Notes under the pieces: generated by a model
Told to the model about the DNA's origin: nothing
The model's database searches: none
Seen by the model: the letters and a program-made list of their open reading frames with translations, nothing else
Origin: Coriobacteriia bacterium
GTDB taxonomy: Bacteria; Actinomycetota; Coriobacteriia; Anaerosomatales; JAAXUF01
Length of the DNA stretch: 49,825 nt
Reading direction: 5' to 3'
NCBI GenBank assembly: GCA_013336165.1
Contig: JAAXUF010000012.1
Location: 1 to 49,825, forward strand
In this document: positions 5,039 through 49,061 of the stretch, in pieces
Layout: each line of letters opens with the position of its first letter
Numbering within the stretch: the stretch's first letter is position 1
Made by a program: the position numbers and the translations under genes

Positions 5039-6493
5039 TTAGCGGGCATCCCAATCCGCGAGGTCCGGAACATCTGTCGCGCCCGGCCCAAGAACGGTTC
5101 TACCTAGACGGCTCGAGGCCAACAGGCGCCCGCCGGTTCTCGGCATGGCGAACAACGGGCTTCGACGCCATGTTTCGCCGAGGGAGCGAAGCCATGCGCC
5201 CTTCACTCTTTCTGCTTTGGCGCCGATTTGAGCATCCGCCTCAGGAACTCTCACGGCGAGCAGCCGGTACACGGTGCCCATCTGCATGCCCAGCAGCACC
5301 CAGAAGAAGATGACCGCGGGAGGGTTCTGAAACGTGTTGTTCGTGAGCGCGGCGAACGCGAAGCCAACGATGGCGATCGTGTAGCCCGCGACCTCGTTTC
5401 GCACGTGACGGTCCGCTGAGGCGATCCTGCCGTAGGCCAGCCCCATGCGGCACACACGCCAGATCAGCCACGCATAGAGCAGGCCGCCGAGAACCCCGGT
5501 CTCGGCGGCGAGCAGCAGGTACGAGTTGTGCGGCGTGATCGCATCGAGGCCGATGCCCAGTGACGGGATAGCCAGCAGCACCAGCTTGGTGACTTCGTCG
5601 TAGCGTCCCAGCCCCACTCCGGTGATGGGGTGTGTCTGAATCATGTGGACCGCAAGGTTCCAAAGGCCCAGGCGCGTATCTGTCGAGTCGTTGACGGTCA
5701 GCCCTGTCACGAGGCGCTGCAACGCTCCGGGAACCGCAAGCAGCAGTACGCCGCCGCTCACAGCGAAGCCGATCAGCGTTCTGAAGCTGATCATCGAGAG
5801 GCCGATCACTGCGCCCACTGCGAGCCCGAGCCAGCTTCCGCGCGTATAGGTGAAGAACAGCGTCACAGTGCCGCATGCAAGCAGCGCACCCGCAAGGTAT
5901 CTGAGTGCGCCGCGCTCCTTCATGGCCAGCACGAGCGCTACTGCGATGTAGAACATCAGATACTCGGAGTAGGGGTTTGGGTTGTGGAACAGGGAGTAGA
6001 CGCGAACCTTGGCCTCGGCATCGACGGCGAACTGCATCGAGGCTGCCGTCGGCACAAGCAGCTGCCAGGCCGCCACGCCCATTGTGACGACGCCGGCGGC
6101 CATGAACGCCCAGGAGAGCAGCCGGCGGTTCTCGGCACGCACGCACGCGGCGGCCACGACCAGCGCCACGACGATGTACATCGCGTAGCGGACCCAAGTC
6201 AGCGCGGAGGAAGCGATCGACGACGAGAAGAGCACCGTGAGCGCCGAGAAGCCGATGAAGGCCAGTGCAGGGATCTCGATGGGGTTTGACGGGAGGCGGC
6301 TTGCACCCAGACGTCGCAGGAAAGGAATCGCTGCGACGATTGCGACCGCCATCGCCAGGATCACCGGCTCGACCGGAACGGAACCGATCTTGACGCGGAG
6401 GTCTGCGATGAGAGGAGCGACCGCGACCAGCAGCACGAGCGCGGCCATGAGGGCCCACTCGGCTTTCGAGCGAACGACGCGCTCTCGGCTCAT
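5039..6493 (-). CDS. O-antigen ligase/polymerase-like membrane protein (second of a pair)
   Basis: This polytopic membrane protein of 484 aa has about 10-12 hydrophobic helices. Motifs of the Wzy/WaaL O-antigen ligase superfamily are visible: YTRGSWLGLAVG in the middle, then a large loop with THPITGVGLGRY and TPHNSYLLLAAETG. This superfamily joins or polymerises lipid-linked glycans outside the membrane. The start is ATG 6493 (MSRERVVRSKAEW), which overlaps the upstream stop by 4 bp and matches the N-terminus of the upstream paralogue (VVRRSKAEL); a longer frame to 6583 lies inside the neighbour. The C-terminal ~60 residues are a polar cytoplasmic tail. The glycan substrate cannot be told. 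Confidence 0.8.
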   Translation of the reverse strand: MSRERVVRSKAEWALMAALVLLVAVAPLIADLRVKIGSVPVEPVILAMAVAIVAAIPFLRRLGASRLPSNPIEIPALAFIGFSALTVLFSSSIASSALTWVRYAMYIVVALVVAAACVRAENRRLLSWAFMAAGVVTMGVAAWQLLVPTAASMQFAVDAEAKVRVYSLFHNPNPYSEYLMFYIAVALVLAMKERGALRYLAGALLACGTVTLFFTYTRGSWLGLAVGAVIGLSMISFRTLIGFAVSGGVLLLAVPGALQRLVTGLTVNDSTDTRLGLWNLAVHMIQTHPITGVGLGRYDEVTKLVLLAIPSLGIGLDAITPHNSYLLLAAETGVLGGLLYAWLIWRVCRMGLAYGRIASADRHVRNEVAGYTIAIVGFAFAALTNNTFQNPPAVIFFWVLLGMQMGTVYRLLAVRVPEADAQIGAKAERVKGAWLRSLGETWRRSPLFAMPRTGGRLLASSRLGRTVLGPGATDVPDLADWDAR

Positions 6494-7851
6494 CGGCGCT
6501 CTCCCCACGGCTCGAGGTCTGCCGCGCCCTCGGCCCCGCGGCCGAGCAGGACCCGCGCTACCTTCGCTCTGAAAGCCGGCCACGCCCCGGTTGCGCCTTG
6601 CGTCTCGCCGCCGTCAGCCTGCGCGGCGTTGGCGCACATCAAGCCGAGAAGCAGCCAGTAGAACACGGCGGCCCGCGGGTTCTGGAAGGAGTTGTCGGTG
6701 AGGGCGTTGGCTGTGTAGCCGATGACCCCCACACTCAGCGCCGCATTGATCAGCCATGCCGCCGAGCCCCGGACCAGCTTCTTTGCGTAGGTGAAGCAGC
6801 TGCGGACCGTGCAGACCACGAACCAGACAAATGCGGCGATACCGAAGATGCCCGTCTCGGCGGCGAGGGTCAAGAAGGAGTTGTGCGCGTTCATCGGGGT
6901 CACGCCGGCGGGGAGCATCGACGGCGTTGCCTTGATCTGCGCCATGAGCGCGGTCACATAGCCGCCCAGCCCAACGCCGGTCCACGGGTGGAGCCGGAAC
7001 ATCTCAACCGCCAGGTTCCACAGCGGGAGACGTACCGATGCGCCGCCTTCGGAGGCGAAGATCGACGTCAGACGCTGCATAGCGCCGGGCACGATCGACA
7101 GAAGCCCGCCGCCGGCCAGGACGAATGCGCCGGCGAGACGCCAGTCGATCATGAGCGCGGCGACGAGAACGCCCAGACCAAGAGCGAGCCAGCTGCCCCG
7201 AGTGTACGTGAGCACGAGCGCACAGGACTGGGCCAGCAGGATCGCCACGGCGCTCCAGCGCCGCCAGTCCTTCTCGGCAAGCGCGAGCGACAGGGTCAGA
7301 GCGAACGCAAGCACGAGGTACTCGGAGTAGGAGTTCGGGTTGCCGAACGACCCCGTTACGCGGGCTCCGACTTCGGCGGAGAATGCGAACGACTTCGCCA
7401 GCGCGTCGGGGCGCGCGAACTGATACGCCGCCTGCGCGACGGTCGCGAGGCTGGTGAGCGCGACGGTCCACGTGAGAAGCCGGCGGTTCTCGGGCCTCAT
7501 GGCCACTGCCGATGCGACCACCAGCAGCAGGATGTAAGTGGCGTAGCGGGTCCACGTGAGCGCCGAACTCAGCACGCCTTCCGAGAACACGACGCTGATC
7601 AGTGTGATGCCGAGGAAGACGAGCGCAGGCAACTCAAGCGGGGAGAAGGGGATTCGGTTGGCTCCAAGGCGACGCAGAAACGGGATCGACAACGCAAGCA
7701 CCAGAGGCGCCGACAACGTTACGGCATCGAGCGGGATGGGCCCCAGCATCACTCGGCCGGGAACGAGGGGCACCAGCACGCACAGGGCCGCAAAGGCGCC
7801 GAGAGCCAAAAGCTCTGCCTTCGATCGGCGTACGACGGCGCCCTGGGTCAT
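6490..7851 (-). CDS. O-antigen ligase/polymerase-like membrane protein (first of a pair)
   Basis: This 453-aa polytopic membrane protein is paralogous to the next gene across its length (YTRGSWLALGLG, LHPWTGVGLGGY, NAHNSFLTLAAETG, NPNSYSEYL). The start was set at ATG 7851 (MTQGAVVRRSKAEL), where it aligns with its paralogue; the frame continues upstream to 7974 without support. A weak AAAGG lies upstream. The ATGA overlap at 6490-6493 implies coupled translation with the paralogue. It probably acts in extracellular polysaccharide or glycoprotein assembly. Confidence 0.8.
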   Translation of the reverse strand: MTQGAVVRRSKAELLALGAFAALCVLVPLVPGRVMLGPIPLDAVTLSAPLVLALSIPFLRRLGANRIPFSPLELPALVFLGITLISVVFSEGVLSSALTWTRYATYILLLVVASAVAMRPENRRLLTWTVALTSLATVAQAAYQFARPDALAKSFAFSAEVGARVTGSFGNPNSYSEYLVLAFALTLSLALAEKDWRRWSAVAILLAQSCALVLTYTRGSWLALGLGVLVAALMIDWRLAGAFVLAGGGLLSIVPGAMQRLTSIFASEGGASVRLPLWNLAVEMFRLHPWTGVGLGGYVTALMAQIKATPSMLPAGVTPMNAHNSFLTLAAETGIFGIAAFVWFVVCTVRSCFTYAKKLVRGSAAWLINAALSVGVIGYTANALTDNSFQNPRAAVFYWLLLGLMCANAAQADGGETQGATGAWPAFRAKVARVLLGRGAEGAADLEPWGERR

Positions 7852-39096: not shown

Positions 39097-41097
39097 CTAG
39101 CGCTCTGCGGCATCCTCGGCATCATCAGGGGCCGCTGAAGAGCTCGAATCGTCGGCCGAACGAACACGTCTCACGATGTAGCCGAGCAGCACGCCAAGGC
39201 CAATCACAATCGCACCGATAATGGCGATGCGGTCCAGATACGACGCATGGACGTCGATGATCTGGCTCGAAACCACCAAGTCGCCCGCCAGAACCTGAAC
39301 CTCAAGCTTGCCGGATGCCGTCGACATCAGGTTCACAGGAACCTGGACGAACGTCTCCTTTGGGGGGAGCGTGGTCTCGATTGACTCGGCCTGCGCCACT
39401 GTGAGGCCCTCGGTTAGCGCGCGGGTCTTGACCGTCACCGACAGCGTCTTCTGCGTGCCGTTGCCGATGGTGATCGGCACGTTGCCGCTCGTTCCGGCAA
39501 GCGTGATGGGTTCACCCTTGAGGTAGATCGTGCCGAGGATGCCTTTGGAGATTCCCAACGAGGTGCTGGCAAACGCCGCGCCACGATCCGCGAGGGTCCA
39601 GTCGCCTTTGAGACCCTTCCATGCCGAGGACTCAGCGAGCAGAGACGGGGTCGTCGCCGCGACGATGTCGGCGTCGCCCGGCTGCAGCGAAGAGCGCAGT
39701 CCCGCAGCGTACGCGCTGGCGCTGTTGACCGTCTGCCAGAAGCTCACGGCACCGGAGTTGGTTGTGTCGAGCATAGTAAGGAGCTGTGTTGAGCCGGTGC
39801 GCGCTGCCGCGTCCCTTGCGAGGACGAGGTTTGCCCAGGGCATCTGCAGAAGCGTTCCGGTGATCTGCTCAAGCACGGCGGAAGCACCCACTCCGCCGTC
39901 ACCGAGATCGACGCACACCGTGAACGGCTGTGTGGTTCCGCTCACCAGCATCCGTTCGAAAGCATGCCGGACGGTCGCAGACGCTTCGCCTGCCGAGAGA
40001 CCCACTCCCGCTTCATGATCGGCGACCAGGGCCGCCAAGCCGGATATCGCGGTCGGGTAGGCGCCGCTTGAAGCCGGCTTGGAGTCAAGCGCCGTCAGAG
40101 CGGAGTCGACCACGACATAGCGGAGGCCGATGTCTGCAAGCTGCTGAAGAACCTTCGAGGGCGCCGCGCCGTTTGCCGGCGCCGTCCCTGCGGAGGGTGT
40201 TGCCCCCAAGCTCGCCAAGATCGCCGAGTATCCGGTCGTGTACTGGAGAGCGGTATCGCTGCCGAGGCCCTGCAGGGCGAGATCGCCCAGATCGGGATCG
40301 GCGTAGCCGAGCGACGTTAGTTCGAGCGCGCCGGAACCCAGCGCTGCCTTGAGACTTGAGAGCGTGTTGGCGTAGGCGCGCGGAGTTGCCTCGGAAGCCA
40401 AGACAGCCTTCCCATTCGGGAGAGTGTAGCCTTGTGCGAGCTGGCGCCATTGCTGCAGAAGGACGGGCGGAACAGCCATGCTGATCTTGGCTTTTGGGTT
40501 CTCGGTGGCGAACCGCACGATAGCATCGACGTCATCGCGTGCACGTGTGTTCTCGGCGGGGTCGGCCACCAACTTGCCGGACGGGTCGGCGAAGGGGGCG
40601 CCGTGCACTCGGAAGACCAGCGCCACCGGCACGGGTGACTTGGCAGCATCGTAGAGCAGCAGCTCGGTGGCTACCGATGTCGTCGAGGTGCTTCCGTTCA
40701 CGGTCGACTTCACGGTCACTTGGACCGGATACACACCCGGAGTGAGTTTGAGGGTGGCTGTGTCCGGGCTGAATGAGAAGGACCGGGTTCCCGTAGCCGC
40801 GTTCTGGATGACCTGGGTGCGCGAGTAGACCGCCGCTCCAGATGGCTTATTGAGCTGCAGCTTAACTTGGAGTTCGTCGACCGCCTTGGGCAGCGTGACC
40901 GTCACCGTATACTTTGCCGTGCTGTTCACGGGGAGTGGACCCCGTGGGGAGTCGAGTGATGCGGTCGGGGGCGTGGTGGCCGGTGGAGTGGCGGCAACAG
41001 CCGCCAGCAACCCGACGGCGGAAAACGCGATCACGAGTGACACTGCTGCCGTCCAGACGGCAGTGCGGCGACGCAATGGTGTGCCAACGACAGTCAT
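39097..41097 (-). CDS. Large membrane-anchored extracytoplasmic protein, DUF6049-like architecture
   Basis: This 666-aa protein has an N-terminal signal peptide (about 12-37), a Thr/Pro linker, a beta-rich domain (about 50-150), a central region starting [12 protein letters not shown] and continuing [16 protein letters not shown] that recalls NodB/glycosidase-like folds, a C-terminal Ig-like domain (about 530-620), one membrane helix ([19 protein letters not shown]) and an acidic Ser/Asp tail. The catalytic residues of a deacetylase are not evident. The architecture resembles actinobacterial DUF6049 envelope proteins; that comparison is from memory and tentative. It is divergent from lon. Confidence 0.6.
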
Positions 41098-41204
41098 CGT
41101 GTGCTCCGAACGGTTTTCCTGCCCTCCCGGGCGACCTGCGGGGAGTGTACCGCCCGCGCCGAACGGGCAGAATGATTATTGCACGAAGAGTCGAAAGGAA
41201 TGCC

Positions 41205-43571
<2,367 letters not shown>

Positions 43572-43707: not shown

Positions 43708-46365
43708 ATGAGGAAACTGCTGTATCGGCCGAATGGCTTCCGGCGAATGATTTCGGCGGTCATGGCCGTCGTGTTTACCGTGTCCATTGCAGGATCAGGG
43801 CTGATCCTGCCCTCGACGGCCTCGGCGTGTCCATCCAACAAAGCTGAGATTCAGATTCTCAAGTTCAATGACACAAACGCCGACGGAGTGAAGCAGTCGA
43901 GCGAGGCGAAGCTCGGTGGGTTCACGTTCTACATCAAGAACCTCGCTACAGGCCACGTATTCACTGAAACCACTCATAACGGGTCTGGCTTGACCGACCT
44001 TGTCCAGCTTGACGTTGGCAGGTACGAGATTACCGAGCAGGTCAAGAGTGGCTACAAGAACACCACGACCCTGCCGAAGATCGTCGAGATCCTTGCCTCG
44101 GACTTGGGCAAGATCAAGCCGGCCATTGAGATCGGCAACAAGGAAGTCGGCAGCATCAAAGTCACCAAGTACTTGAGTTCTAACGGTTCGAGTGAGAGTG
44201 GACCCAGACTTGCAGGGAACTGGACGTTTTCTCTCTACAAGAACGGCGCCTTGATCGAAACGAAGTCTACAAATGGAGGCGATCACGTTCACTTTGATGG
44301 ATTGTTCGTTGGTGGTGGCTACACGGTTACAGAGGACCTCACCGGGAATACCGGGTACTACCTTGTTACGAGACTAGATCAGAAGACACTGTCAGTGTGT
44401 GCGGGGGATACGACCGATCTCAGTGTCTTCAACGCCAAGTACGCAAAGATCATCGTCACCAAGAACAACGCAGCCGGTGGCACTATCAAGGGCGTGACCA
44501 TGACGCTGACAGGTCCCGGGGGAACGCGTACAGGAACAACCGGCAACGATGGAACATACACGTTCGGCAACCTTCTCCCCGGCACATACACGGTTGCAGA
44601 GACCGTGCCCTCGGGCTGGTACAGTGTGGATCCCAAGACCTCGGTGACGCTGACCGTCAAGACAGGCGACACCGCCTCCTGTGCCTTCACCAACGCGCAG
44701 TTCGCCTCTGTGACGGTAAAGAAGTTCCAAGACTACAACCTGAACGGAACCCGCGACTCCGGCGAGCCGCTGCTCTCAGGTTGGACGTTTGCTCTGAAGA
44801 GTAGCGATACCACCGTTGCCTCTGGAATCACAAATGCCAACGGTGAGGTCACCTTCAGCAACCTTCTCAACGGGACGTACAGCTTGGTTGAGGTGGCGCA
44901 GACCGGTTGGTATGCAACAACTACCCTGCCCATCACTGTTGGGCTGAGCCAGGGACAGAATGCGTCTTTTGAGGTCGGCAACACCTACGACGTCACAAAA
45001 TCCTTCGAGTTCACATATCGCAACATGCCTGCGGGCGCGAAGCTTTATGCCACATACCAAGTCGTCGGCGGCGGGTCGGGCCGAGTGGATCTGGTTCGCG
45101 ACGGAACCACGGATGCCTACAAAGGCTCCGTGAAGCTGCCTGTGATGTCTGTGATCACCGGTAGCTGGATGATCGAGCTTGCCAGTGGCGAGTCCATTGC
45201 CCTGAAGGCACCGTTCGGTCCGGAAACCCTCAGCGCGGATCTGCTCAACAAGAATGATTACTACGATCCGACTCTCTCCGGTCTTAAGTACAACGACCTC
45301 AATGCCAATGGTCAGCGCGATCAAGGCGAGCCTGGCATCGCTGGCTGGGGCATCACCCTTGAGCGCTTGGTTCCCAGCGGTGGGCAGATCCAGCCCAACG
45401 CCGTGGTCGCGACCACGTGGGAGACATGGGCAACCACTACCACGGATGCGAACGGCAACTACTCGTTCATCGACATGCCTCCGGGAACCTACCGCGTGGT
45501 CGAGGAGCAGCGTGCCGGTTGGGTCAATCTTGAGCATCCGAACGGGACCATGGTTGTTGAGAACGGAACCGCGATCACCGGTCTGCTGTTCGGGAACTAC
45601 CAGCCGCCGAGTGTCACCGCACTCAAGTACAACGATCAGAACGGTAACGGCGTGCGCGAGGCCAACGAGCCGGCGCTTTCCGGTTGGACGTTCGCCCTCT
45701 ACAACGGTGAGACCACGGTGACTGTGACGACCGGCGCCGACGGTAAGGCTCTCTTCTCGGATCTCAAGCCGGGAACCTACGTGCTGAGCGAAGTCGAGCA
45801 GGCGGGCTGGTTCAACACGACCGGACTTCCGTACACGTTCACCCTACAGAGCGGCGATGCCGGCACCATTCTCGTCGGTAATGCGCTTGCTCTCGGGTTC
45901 TCGGATGTCACGCTCGTCAAGTCCGCCGATCGCACGAAGGCAAAGCCTGGCGATCTGGTGACCTATACGCTCACGTACACCAACACCGAGCCCCTGACGG
46001 TCTCGGGCCTGACGATCACGGACAACTACGATCAGCGATACATGACCCCCGTGAATGTGGCGGGCGGGATCGACAATGGCGACACCATCAAGTGGGTCGA
46101 CAACACCCCGCTTAAGCAGGGCGAGTCACGCACGATCACCTATACAATGCGCGTGAAGGCAGCGATGCCTGCAGGTACGACGCACATCGGCAACACCGCG
46201 ACGATCACGCCCTACGACCACCAGTCGTCTTGGAACGTTGACGTGACCGTTGACGATCCATTCCTGCCCTTCACGGGCGGCAACTGGTCTCTCATCGGGA
46301 TGTTCGCACTGCTTGCCGCAGGTCTCGGAGTATTCCTCCGCAGGATCGGACGGACTTCGCACTAG
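43708..46365 (+). CDS. LPxTG-anchored SdrD-B/SpaA-repeat surface protein
   Basis: This 885-aa protein starts at ATG 43708 with GGGGTGAGGG upstream. A signal peptide (about 1-42) is followed by a string of Ig-like domains. Four carry the SdrD-B calcium-loop signature (KFNDTNADGVKQSSE, KFQDYNLNGTRDSGEP, KYNDLNANGQRDQGEP, KYNDQNGNGVREANEP). Others look like SpaA/collagen-binding B repeats (GTYTVAETVPSGWY). Then a DUF11-like domain (about 735-850), LPFTG (853-857), a membrane helix and a basic tail. It should be cut by sortase and linked to the cell wall, acting as an adhesin or stalk. The likely enzyme is encoded 1 kb downstream. Confidence 0.9.
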   Translation: MRKLLYRPNGFRRMISAVMAVVFTVSIAGSGLILPSTASACPSNKAEIQILKFNDTNADGVKQSSEAKLGGFTFYIKNLATGHVFTETTHNGSGLTDLVQLDVGRYEITEQVKSGYKNTTTLPKIVEILASDLGKIKPAIEIGNKEVGSIKVTKYLSSNGSSESGPRLAGNWTFSLYKNGALIETKSTNGGDHVHFDGLFVGGGYTVTEDLTGNTGYYLVTRLDQKTLSVCAGDTTDLSVFNAKYAKIIVTKNNAAGGTIKGVTMTLTGPGGTRTGTTGNDGTYTFGNLLPGTYTVAETVPSGWYSVDPKTSVTLTVKTGDTASCAFTNAQFASVTVKKFQDYNLNGTRDSGEPLLSGWTFALKSSDTTVASGITNANGEVTFSNLLNGTYSLVEVAQTGWYATTTLPITVGLSQGQNASFEVGNTYDVTKSFEFTYRNMPAGAKLYATYQVVGGGSGRVDLVRDGTTDAYKGSVKLPVMSVITGSWMIELASGESIALKAPFGPETLSADLLNKNDYYDPTLSGLKYNDLNANGQRDQGEPGIAGWGITLERLVPSGGQIQPNAVVATTWETWATTTTDANGNYSFIDMPPGTYRVVEEQRAGWVNLEHPNGTMVVENGTAITGLLFGNYQPPSVTALKYNDQNGNGVREANEPALSGWTFALYNGETTVTVTTGADGKALFSDLKPGTYVLSEVEQAGWFNTTGLPYTFTLQSGDAGTILVGNALALGFSDVTLVKSADRTKAKPGDLVTYTLTYTNTEPLTVSGLTITDNYDQRYMTPVNVAGGIDNGDTIKWVDNTPLKQGESRTITYTMRVKAAMPAGTTHIGNTATITPYDHQSSWNVDVTVDDPFLPFTGGNWSLIGMFALLAAGLGVFLRRIGRTSH

Positions 46366-46387
46366 CGGGAAACAGCATTCTGGCGAT

Positions 46388-46419
46388 AAGAAAGAGCCGC
46401 GAAGACGCGGCTCTTTCTT
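46388..46419. terminator. Bidirectional hairpin terminator
   Basis: A perfect 14-bp stem (46388-46401 with 46406-46419, arms AAGAAAGAGCCGCG and CGCGGCTCTTTCTT) with a 4-nt loop lies between the convergent adhesin and metallopeptidase genes. The A-rich and U-rich flanks allow termination in both directions. Confidence 0.92.
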
Positions 46420-46440
46420 TGGTCGTACGTAACTCTCGGC

Positions 46441-47097
46441 TTACAGGGCAGGGATGCTCTCGCCCCAGTCGATCACGCCGTTGTCACGCCAGTCGATGAC
46501 GTGGCCGATTTCATGACGAATGATGGTGGCGAGGCTCGCCGTGTGAGTGGCGGAAAGAATGATCCGACCGCTCTGGTAGTAAGTGATCGCCTGATAGCCA
46601 CGAGCGTCCCCGAAGGTGATCGTCGTTCCCGCAAGGATCGGGTACTTGGCGACGTATGAGTCGAGGATGGCCTGAGCCTGCTCCTGCTCGCTCGGACCCG
46701 GAGTGACAACGGGAACCGGGGTCGGCGCAGGGACGGGTTCGGGAGCCGCGGCCGGAGCGACGTTCTCAGCAGCTGGGGTGGGAGCGGGGTTTGTGTTTGC
46801 CGGAGGAGTTGCCGTCGCTTGGTTCGGTGTGTTCAGGGCTGCGGATGGTTCAGCCTGAGCCGGGGTGGTCGCGGACGCAGGCGCGACGGTGGCGACCTCA
46901 GACGATGCCGACGCAACCACTATCGTTGGGTCTGAAGAGGTGATGGCGCCCGGGGAGGAGATTGCGACTGCCTGAGTGCCGGTATTGCTTGTCGGCATGC
47001 CGAGAGCGACGAGCGTCGGCACCGTGGTGAGCGCAAGAGCGGTCATGGCGACGGCGATGATGCGCCCGAGGTGTTTCGGCCAAGTGAACCGCTTCAT
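46441..47097 (-). CDS. Secreted zinc metallopeptidase-like protein (HEIGH)
   Basis: This 218-aa protein has a signal peptide or membrane anchor (about 8-33), a long Ala/Pro/Thr-rich linker (about 40-140), and a compact C-terminal domain (about 145-218). That domain holds the zinc-binding HExxH motif as RHEIGHVIDW (His195, Glu196, His199), ending in IDWGES, which may supply a third ligand. The linker suggests the domain is held across the cell wall. The substrate is unknown; the neighbouring LPxTG protein is an obvious candidate. ATG 47097 has AGAAGGGC upstream. The long leader contains a c-di-GMP-I riboswitch. The domain is short for a full peptidase, so a binding-only role is possible. Confidence 0.75.
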   Translation of the reverse strand: MKRFTWPKHLGRIIAVAMTALALTTVPTLVALGMPTSNTGTQAVAISSPGAITSSDPTIVVASASSEVATVAPASATTPAQAEPSAALNTPNQATATPPANTNPAPTPAAENVAPAAAPEPVPAPTPVPVVTPGPSEQEQAQAILDSYVAKYPILAGTTITFGDARGYQAITYYQSGRIILSATHTASLATIIRHEIGHVIDWRDNGVIDWGESIPAL

Positions 47098-47198
47098 GAT
47101 CGTGTGCCCTTCTGCGAGATGCGAGCACATCGGCCGAGCTTCCCCCCTGCGTAAACACTCGCTGGGCGGAACCTCAGCCGAACGGCTTGGAGATCTCG

Positions 47199-47294
47199 TC
47201 CCGGCGGTCCGGCTGTCGTGGGAAGACGCTTGCCTTCCGTTAGACCCGTGACTTTGCGAGGCGGACTTTCGATCCGCTGTGCCTTTGTCGGGGA
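47199..47294 (-). ncRNA. Cyclic-di-GMP-I (GEMM) riboswitch
   Basis: Read on the minus strand, the conserved elements occur in order: AAAGGCA; a GCGGA/TCCGC stem capped by a C-GAAA-G tetraloop; CGCAAAGTCACGGGTCTAA; a variable stem GGAAG/CTTCC; and GACAGCCGGACCGCCGG, the tetraloop-receptor strand. TCCC (47294-47291) and GGGA (47202-47199) close the aptamer. These match the GEMM-I consensus closely. By my alignment the ligand-contacting G of the GGC element is present, which favours c-di-GMP over cGAMP. It lies about 100 nt before the metallopeptidase ATG. The linker (47098-47198) contains small hairpins (AGCCG/CGGCT, GATG/CATC) and no clear U-run terminator, so the on/off sense is unknown. Confidence 0.85.
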
Positions 47295-47351
47295 ACACGT
47301 TCGATGTGCGGTTTTCAAATCCTTACACTGTGAGTATCGGCAGCGGGCGGT

Positions 47352-47357
47352 AGAATC
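47352..47357 (+). promoter_or_regulatory. Candidate -10 box for the sortase gene
   Basis: TAGAAT about 47 bp before the sortase ATG, in the 306-bp divergent region shared with the riboswitch leader. No good -35. Confidence 0.35.
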
Positions 47358-47403
47358 ATTACAGCTTTGTTCGAAGAAATCGGTCAGTTTCGAGGAGGAT
47401 GGG

Positions 47404-48096
47404 ATGCCGGAAGCGGGGAGCGGCCCTGAGAGGCGGAGCTGGAGGCTGGCAGCTTCTCTTCTCGGCGATGTGTTTCTCGGCATCGCGATCGGGCTGCTCG
47501 GCTACTACGCGGTGACAAACGGGGTCACGGCTGTCGAGCAGCAGGCCCTTCAGGCGCAAATTCCGCAGGTTGCAGACGTGCGTATCGTTCCCAACGAATC
47601 CGGGTCTGTGGTAACCACGGACTCTGCGAATTCAGCCGAGCAGGACAAGGCGTACTGGGGCGGACTTGCCGAGGGTGACGCTTTTGGCCGGCTGGTCATC
47701 GCGCGCATTGGACTGGACGTTGTGGTCGTCAAGGGCGTGAACCGGGACGATCTCATGAAGGGTCCGGGGTGGATCCCCACGACGAGCGTTCCCGGGACCA
47801 CCGGCAACGTCGGCATCGCGGGGCACAGGACGACGTACCTGGCTCCGTTTCGCGACGTCGACCAGCTTCAAGTTGGTGACACAATCGAGTTCTACACGCC
47901 GTACAGCCGCTACACTTATCGGGTGAGCCGTACGCTGATCGTGTTGCCGACGCAGGTGGATGTCATGGACCCGACGCCGTCGCCCATGCTGACGCTTTCG
48001 GCGTGTCATCCTCCGTTCAGCGCCGAGTACAGAATGATCGTTCAGTCCGACCTCGCGAAAGTCGAACGCCTAGCGCCGGCTTCCGCGTCGAAATAG
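47404..48096 (+). CDS. srtE: Class E-type sortase
   Basis: This 230-aa protein starts at ATG 47404 behind GAGGAGG. One N-terminal membrane helix (about 17-42) is followed by a sortase beta-barrel with His141 (GIAGHRTTY), Cys201 (LTLSACHPPF) and Arg210 (AEYRMIV), the catalytic triad. WIPTTSVPGTTGNVGIAGH is typical of actinobacterial class E enzymes. It attaches proteins with LPxTG-like signals to the cell wall; the LPFTG protein 1 kb upstream is the likely substrate, although class E enzymes often prefer LAxTG. Confidence 0.92.
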   Translation: MPEAGSGPERRSWRLAASLLGDVFLGIAIGLLGYYAVTNGVTAVEQQALQAQIPQVADVRIVPNESGSVVTTDSANSAEQDKAYWGGLAEGDAFGRLVIARIGLDVVVVKGVNRDDLMKGPGWIPTTSVPGTTGNVGIAGHRTTYLAPFRDVDQLQVGDTIEFYTPYSRYTYRVSRTLIVLPTQVDVMDPTPSPMLTLSACHPPFSAEYRMIVQSDLAKVERLAPASASK

Positions 48097-48107
48097 GGGG
48101 GCATCTC

Positions 48108-49061
48108 ATGCGCGTTCTCGTTACCGGCGGAGCTGGCTTCATCGGTTCGAATCTCGTTGGCACGCTATTGGCGCGCGGCCATGATGTAGGCGTCGTGGAC
48201 AACCTCTCCACCGGTCGCCGAGACAACCTTGCGCCCGAAGTCTGGTTCCGCGAGCTCGACATCCTGGACACGGCGCTGCAAGACGCGGTCGCCGAGTTCG
48301 CGCCTGAGGCCGTGGTCCACCTCGCGGCGCAGGCCAGTGTCTCGGAGTCACTGCGCGATCCCGAGCGCGACTGGGCCGTGAACGCCGAGGGTACTCGGCT
48401 GGTGGCTGCAGCCGCACGGCAAGTCGGCGTGCAGCGGATGGTCTCGGCATCCTCGGCGGCGGTCTACGGCGAGCCCGACGAGGCCGACTTGCCTCTGAAG
48501 GAGACGGCCCGCAAGGCGCCGGCGAACCCTTATGGCAAGAGCAAACTCGCCGCCGAGGGGCTTATGGCGGCCGAACTCGCCGGAAGCCCAACGGACTTCG
48601 CGTCGTTTCGCTTCAGCAACGTCTACGGTCCGGGGCAGGACGGGGCGGGTGAGGGCGGCGTGGTCGCCATCTTCTGCACGAGGCTGCGGGACGACGTGGC
48701 GCCCGTGATCTACGGCTCCGGCGGTCAGACACGGGACTTCATCTACGTCGGCGACGTGGTTGAGGCGATCATAGCGGCGGCCGAGGCATCGGGGTCGCTT
48801 GCGTCGATGGGTTCTGGGGCAGATGCAGCCTCGTACAACATCTCGACGGGCGCGGAGACGTCCGTGAACGGGTTGCTTGACGCGCTGCGTGCCGCATCGG
48901 CCAAGATGGGGGAGCCGATATTCTTGCCCGCACGCGACGGCGATGTCGACCGCAGTTCGCTCGATCCCGCGAAGGCATTAGGTGCTTTCGGCTGGCATGC
49001 AGTGGCTCCGCTGGAGCGTGGCGTGACGTCGACATGGCGATGGTTTGGCGGACACGCGTGA
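48108..49061 (+). CDS. NAD-dependent sugar-nucleotide epimerase/dehydratase
   Basis: This 317-aa extended-SDR protein has the NAD motif TGGAGFIGSN (about 6-15), an ASSAAVYG serine strand, the catalytic YGKSK (Tyr/Lys near 143/147) and RFSNVYGPGQ. It resembles UDP-glucose 4-epimerases (GalE type) and likely feeds cell-surface glycans. ATG 48108 has AGGGGGG upstream, 11 bp after the sortase stop. It overlaps the next gene by 4 bp (GTGA). Exact substrate not determinable. Confidence 0.87.
   Translation: MRVLVTGGAGFIGSNLVGTLLARGHDVGVVDNLSTGRRDNLAPEVWFRELDILDTALQDAVAEFAPEAVVHLAAQASVSESLRDPERDWAVNAEGTRLVAAAARQVGVQRMVSASSAAVYGEPDEADLPLKETARKAPANPYGKSKLAAEGLMAAELAGSPTDFASFRFSNVYGPGQDGAGEGGVVAIFCTRLRDDVAPVIYGSGGQTRDFIYVGDVVEAIIAAAEASGSLASMGSGADAASYNISTGAETSVNGLLDALRAASAKMGEPIFLPARDGDVDRSSLDPAKALGAFGWHAVAPLERGVTSTWRWFGGHA

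Follow-up and report, generated by a model that had tools for sequence, protein, structure and literature searches.

The stretch of DNA analysed in this study (49,825 nucleotides; referred to as the window) raises the question of whether a surface protein gene, a gene for a putative secreted zinc peptidase, a sortase gene and a c-di-GMP-I riboswitch constitute a single circuit, by which an actinobacterium might hold on to a surface or let go of it. Every part named in the initial annotation (an LPxTG surface protein, a HEIGH protein, a sortase and the riboswitch) was found in the window, and the coordinates proved correct. The surface protein gene (P0001; positions 43708-46365, plus strand, ATG at 43708; 885 aa) and the peptidase gene (P0002; 46441-47097, minus strand, ATG at 47097; 218 aa) are convergently oriented, while the peptidase gene and the sortase gene (P0003; 47404-48096, plus strand; 230 aa) are divergent. 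The riboswitch is therefore part of the peptidase mRNA only and does not control the sortase gene in cis. The sortase ORF as listed from 47218 is likely too long, with the ATG at 47404 as the start. The module is bordered on the left by a conserved gene for a Lon-like protease (40914-43571, plus strand), whose listed start codon is probably too far upstream, and on the right by a conserved gene of the NAD-dependent epimerase type (48108-49061, plus strand). The end of the contig (49700-49825) reads like the border of an insertion sequence transposase gene.

P0001 is composed of SdrD_B/SpaA-type repeats (SdrD_B, 2.9e-42; SpaA, 2.9e-41) and DUF11 (1.5e-9), and it ends with a DPFLPFTGG sorting signal. 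It has the features of LPxTG surface proteins, i.e. the LPFTG motif, a hydrophobic stretch, a basic tail and repeat domains, and it is the sole protein of this type in its genome. In 17 aligned relatives the LPFTG motif is invariant, and the PF residues at the two positions preceding it are nearly so. The initial annotation described an LPxTG SdrD-B-type surface protein and also called it an adhesin. No known adhesive domain (N2/N3 type or other) was found in P0001, so the term adhesin is presumptive, and the protein could equally be a pilus-like fibre. A shared cleavage motif or candidate cut site was sought across the surface proteins, and none common to them was identified; just a few residues separate the last folded domain from LPFTG. 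PPxP-like motifs occur sporadically in 36 relatives of P0001, mostly at a distance from the C-terminus, and are absent from P0001 itself. Some of the proteins (L104, L106, L107, L115, L117, L122, L130, L136, L158, L160, L176 and L177) carry extra PFLPFT- or LPYT-like copies without the following G, either as tandem repeats at the sorting signal or just ahead of the last DUF11 domain; these are possible peptidase or decoy sites.

The product of the peptidase gene comprises a hydrophobic N-terminus, approximately 90 residues rich in Pro, Ala and Thr, and an 85-residue domain (residues 134-218) with the HExxH motif in the form HEIGH. This domain has no family match in Pfam or NCBIfam, and protein and profile searches of PDB chains gave no sequence match. 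Residues H62, E63, H66, D69, W78 and E80 (domain numbering) are invariant in a 42-row alignment, and the invariant HExxH motif points to peptidase activity. The AlphaFold2 model of the domain (mean pLDDT 89) consists of a helix, three strands and the active-site helix, followed by a tail with E80 (pLDDT below 50). The best Foldseek hits were the minigluzincins jannalysin, selecase and abylysin (probability up to 1.00, TM approximately 0.6, but a weak E-value, 0.016 at best); the predicted fold has the minimal alpha/beta core of zincins, and its active-site helix carries HExxH. E80, the candidate third zinc ligand, is invariant within the order but falls in the low-confidence tail, and its position is not kept in distant relatives. 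We interpret the domain as representing a new family of minigluzincin-like zincins. Membership of the PPEP/lethal factor (ATLF) family was rejected: there was no ATLF/PPEP match in Pfam and no sequence hit in the PDB, no PPEP entry was named among the 50 Foldseek matches listed, and the minigluzincins ranked first; the neighbouring surface proteins also lack consistent Pro-Pro target motifs close to their anchor. The original proposal that the peptidase is not recognisably PPEP is thus supported.

The sortase domain of P0003 was identified with PF04203 (3.7e-30). Class E scores best, as the initial annotation had it, but the match to NCBIfam NF033747 (134 bits) is below the cut-off of 160, so that class E is the nearest class rather than a formal assignment. 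The genome containing the window (1,987,874 bases) encodes 13 GGDEF proteins and two sortases. The second sortase gene adjoins a gene for a protein ending with LPITS and a hydrophobic stretch (L163, G000:C3:218000-229000, positions 5514-7065), and the two apparently form a separate sortase-substrate pair.

The aptamer (47293-47200, minus strand) was detected with the Rfam covariance model RF01051 (56.7 bits against a gathering score of 35; E-value 1.6e-8 for the whole window). The peptidase ATG follows 102 bases downstream of it, in agreement with the original proposal that the peptidase mRNA bears a c-di-GMP-I riboswitch. It is the only match of this kind in the genome. In c-di-GMP-I aptamers, a conserved CC at the 3′ end and the G of GGCA, which is A in variants selective for cGAMP, have a role in ligand binding. 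Both the G (within AAAGGCA) and the 3′ CC are present in the window and invariant among 30 aligned leaders. The leader is presumed to bind c-di-GMP.

The distribution of the module was analysed in 99 related genomes, nearly all of them draft MAGs. The peptidase domain occurs in 50 of these genomes (55 copies), and a c-di-GMP-I match in 59. In a separate search of genome contigs, a profile query recovered the domain and a single-protein query gave no match. In 45 of the 55 copies, a riboswitch on the same strand precedes the domain by 348-562 bp, and this peptidase family is served by 45 of the 66 riboswitches of these genomes. The frequency of linkage, together with the single match in the window's own genome, led us to reject chance placement of the riboswitch. 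The ten copies without a riboswitch include three at contig edges, three paralogues and four true absences (G008, G018, G021 and G034), the last confirmed by permissive searches. A surface protein of the EPFLPFTG type is faced by 39 of the 42 riboswitch-bearing loci with visible flanks, and by none of seven riboswitch-less copies (the four primary loci and the three paralogues). This association is significant (Fisher p=1.4e-6; 2e-4 when the three paralogues are excluded), with p-values made optimistic by kinship, since three of the four primary absences represent one family. A lack of conservation of the three-gene neighbourhood had been named beforehand as one of the observations that would refute the proposal, and the neighbourhood proved to be strongly conserved.

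The riboswitch without an adjacent surface protein gene was observed in G027, G006 and G023 (rearranged). In G006 (L139), a second sortase gene occupies the place of the surface protein gene beside the peptidase gene, and an EPFLPFTGG protein is encoded on another contig. Across an order-level group of Coriobacteriia (Anaerosomatales), the genes stand in the sequence Lon, surface protein, peptidase with riboswitch, sortase and epimerase in family after family; some ten families of this order have the complete module. Both the peptidase and the surface protein are missing from the two other genomes that belong to the window's family. One locus (L092, G024:C111, 5511-7414) contains two tandem peptidase genes, both equipped with a separate c-di-GMP-I riboswitch, ahead of the surface protein gene. 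Elsewhere in the order or class, c-di-GMP-I switches precede genes for secreted glycosidases, GH26-like (L047, L051, L056, L057) or GH5-like (L049, L052), and in L035 a weakly WxL-like wall protein gene (one representative of each type was tested against Pfam). The role of c-di-GMP riboswitches in this group thus seems to concern the cell surface and the matrix.

A phylum-wide, thin sample yielded nine further genomes with the peptidase domain, and the idea that the peptidase is confined to the order was therefore rejected. In five of the nine, a riboswitch is placed 445-605 bp upstream of the peptidase. The convergent neighbour in L171 and L177 encodes a protein of SdrD_B type whose sorting motif reads EPFLPYTG or NPFLPFTG, and a sortase is adjacent in L174 and L176, the latter additionally with an LPYTG protein. 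The pairing of riboswitch and peptidase thus recurs in other actinobacterial families, which indicates for this association either an origin before the order or a mobility that reaches beyond it. The expression platforms differ: SD capture without a terminator inside the order, mostly terminators outside it. A search of IMG/VR gave one short marginal match.

On the minus strand, the elements of the leader of the window follow one another (5′ to 3′) as U1 (47301-47310), the anti-SD strand (47291-47303, immediately 5′ of the aptamer), the aptamer, X1, the Y hairpin (47131-47180), U2 (at about 47125-47133, the complement of U1), X2, the Shine-Dalgarno region AGAAGGGCACACG (47101-47113) and the ATG. 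Helix X, formed by CGAGAT right behind the aptamer and ATCTCG right ahead of the SD, encloses the Y hairpin, which lies between the aptamer and the SD. RNAalifold applied to a MAFFT alignment of leaders recovered the aptamer hairpins and the Y hairpin only, being limited by spacers of varying length. We therefore used a swap test on 33 leaders, in which the pairing of a strand with its own partner is compared with its pairing with the partner of other species (the tree is not modelled). Own pairing was stronger for anti-SD:SD (-16.2 versus -13.1 kcal/mol), helix X (-17.6 versus -13.5 kcal/mol) and the Y hairpin (-31.3 versus -25.3 kcal/mol), with p=0.0002 in each case. For U1:U2 (-14.9 versus -11.3), the p-value was 0.0002 in one narrow window, 0.009 in another, and 0.10 in the first, wider windows. 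Control combinations of segments gave p-values from 0.24 to 0.99; the one exception was the significant pairing of anti-SD with U2, which is probably explained by the overlap of these windows with U1 and Y2.

Since U1:U2 crosses both anti-SD:SD and X, the two sets of helices are mutually exclusive. In predicted full-length folds, the SD is paired with the anti-SD strand with a probability of more than one half in 23 of the 33 leaders, and near one half in several more; in the predicted intermediate preceding transcription of X2 and SD, U1:U2 is formed in 20 of 33. No intrinsic terminator was found in the leader of the window, so a transcriptional terminator was rejected as its platform. Complementarity for a classical P1 within the order does not exceed chance (own -7.3, shuffled -7.3 kcal/mol; 33 leaders). 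Cd1 of C. difficile is also devoid of P1 (PMC9262584), and its absence does not disqualify these RNAs as members of the c-di-GMP-I class; the coupling of ligand binding to SD pairing is, in consequence, one that we infer.

On balance, we lean towards a reading in which the peptidase is switched on when c-di-GMP is low and then trims the surface protein or sets it free, as an analogue of PPEP-1. The sortase would anchor the long, repeat-built LPFTG protein to the wall, as its sorting signal and the linkage of the genes suggest. At high c-di-GMP, the strand flanking the aptamer would pair with the SD, closing the junction needed for ligand binding and leaving the peptidase mRNA untranslated, so that in sessile cells the anchored protein would stay intact. 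At low c-di-GMP, the competing U1:U2 helix would free the SD, and the peptidase, once made, would cut the anchored protein, its presumed substrate, and allow the cell to let go of the surface. What the analysis documents directly is the genes, the riboswitch, their linkage across the order, an HExxH motif without exceptions, and covariation both in the helices that sequester the SD and in the one that competes with them; the 13 GGDEF proteins of the genome also fit this reading.

A different outcome may be envisaged for the sign of the switch. Because the anti-SD:SD helix lies at the place of P1, ligand binding would be expected to promote closure of the SD. In the distant relatives L171, L175, L176 and L177, an intrinsic terminator is located downstream of the aptamer, and strong complementarity exists between the strand flanking the aptamer and the terminator's loop and 3′ arm in L175 (z -3.6), L176 (z -6.1) and L177 (z -4.8), but not in L171 (z -0.9). 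The antiterminator of the first three would conflict with ligand binding, which again predicts an OFF switch. Vc2, a c-di-GMP-I riboswitch, is a translational OFF switch (PMC9262584), and the class I switches of C. difficile, including that of PPEP-1, are OFF as well (PMC11477304). It is likely, judging from these leader sequences, that c-di-GMP represses the peptidase. If, on the contrary, a ligand-stabilised P1 captured the anti-SD strand and freed the SD, c-di-GMP would turn the peptidase on, and the surface protein would be matured or processed as cells become sessile. In favour of this, most predicted full-length folds hide the SD by default; formation of P1 would expose it, since the anti-SD strand is found where the P1 5′ strand would be; and the window allows a 4-bp UCCC:GGGA P1. 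Against this stand the chance-level P1 complementarity in the order, the terminator/antiterminator layouts of the distant relatives and the precedents just cited, and we regard an ON switch as rather unlikely.

It is also conceivable, though improbable in our estimate, that the peptidase is secreted and controlled by c-di-GMP but acts on another target (the matrix, pili, another wall protein or the sortase), its neighbours being merely a conserved cluster of surface genes. The peptidase is kept without an adjacent surface protein in G008, G018, G021, G027 and G034, and three of these genomes (G008, G021 and G034) retain a match to an LPFTG-type C-terminus elsewhere; the secreted glycosidases downstream of other c-di-GMP-I switches in the order also fit such a role. 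Yet the riboswitch is gone in four of these five primary loci, and 39 of the 42 loci that have it and show their flanks face a surface protein, which ties the regulation to that neighbour. Finally, the HEIGH protein may be a zinc-binding or scaffolding surface factor without peptidase activity, as might be suspected from a domain shorter than known minigluzincins with an uncertain third zinc ligand. An inactive protein should lose its catalytic residues, and the invariance of the catalytic Glu and both His in 42 sequences makes this explanation highly improbable.

The initial interpretation as a whole is thus partly supported, and convergence on a stick-or-release switch, with release of the surface protein at low c-di-GMP, is its best reading. 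More tentatively, and with somewhat less than even confidence, we suggest that an undescribed mini zinc peptidase family, with a riboswitch architecture peculiar to it (SD replacing the P1 3′ strand), an LPFTG protein and a sortase may form a release circuit that arose independently of PPEP-1 and is ancient in this actinobacterial order, with terminator platforms in other lineages. In the papers searched, c-di-GMP control of peptidase-driven surface release is well described in Gram-positive bacteria only for C. difficile, and a full-text search of openly licensed papers found no earlier report of the present module. Peptidases that are unrelated to each other appear to have come under the control of one second messenger and to be directed at similar targets, a convergence that is directly testable. 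The hosts are little-studied, anaerobic, free-living subsurface actinobacteria, whose cultured members bear appendages resembling pili and gather in clusters on iron minerals (PMC9686372). What is gained is a putative new family of small proteases and a riboswitch that keeps its gene while its platform (terminator or SD capture) differs between lineages.

Each component may be compared with known systems. P0001 and the sortase resemble SdrD_B-SpaA surface proteins and pilins and class E sortases in their domain content and LPxTG signal, and differ in the lack of a detected N2/N3 domain and in the sub-threshold class E score. The peptidase domain shares with jannalysin, selecase and abylysin the minimal alpha-beta-beta-beta-alpha(HExxH) core, but it is shorter, is secreted with a long linker and has 13-17% identity to them. 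The riboswitch belongs to the same aptamer family as Vc2 (PMC9262584), and in both a strand flanking the aptamer controls access to the start of the gene; here, however, it is the SD itself that is bound by the strand lying 5′ of the aptamer, with the inserted XY hairpin between the two, a classical P1 is not detectable in the order, and the competing U1:U2 helix is located outside. The closest functional parallel is PPEP-1 (CD2830/Zmp1) of C. difficile, described with its substrates CD2831 and CD3246, a secreted metalloprotease with a class I c-di-GMP riboswitch (PMC11477304). Both systems place a secreted metalloprotease gene under a class I switch, with a sortase-anchored surface protein as the (here presumed) target. 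They differ in the peptidase itself, which Pfam, PDB sequence and fold searches do not recognise as PPEP, and in the surface proteins, where PPxP motifs are sporadic in the relatives and missing from P0001. No riboswitch was found on the surface protein gene, which leaves no place for inverse class II control. The order has instead a platform of SD sequestration without a terminator, and a linked sortase that belongs to the cluster.
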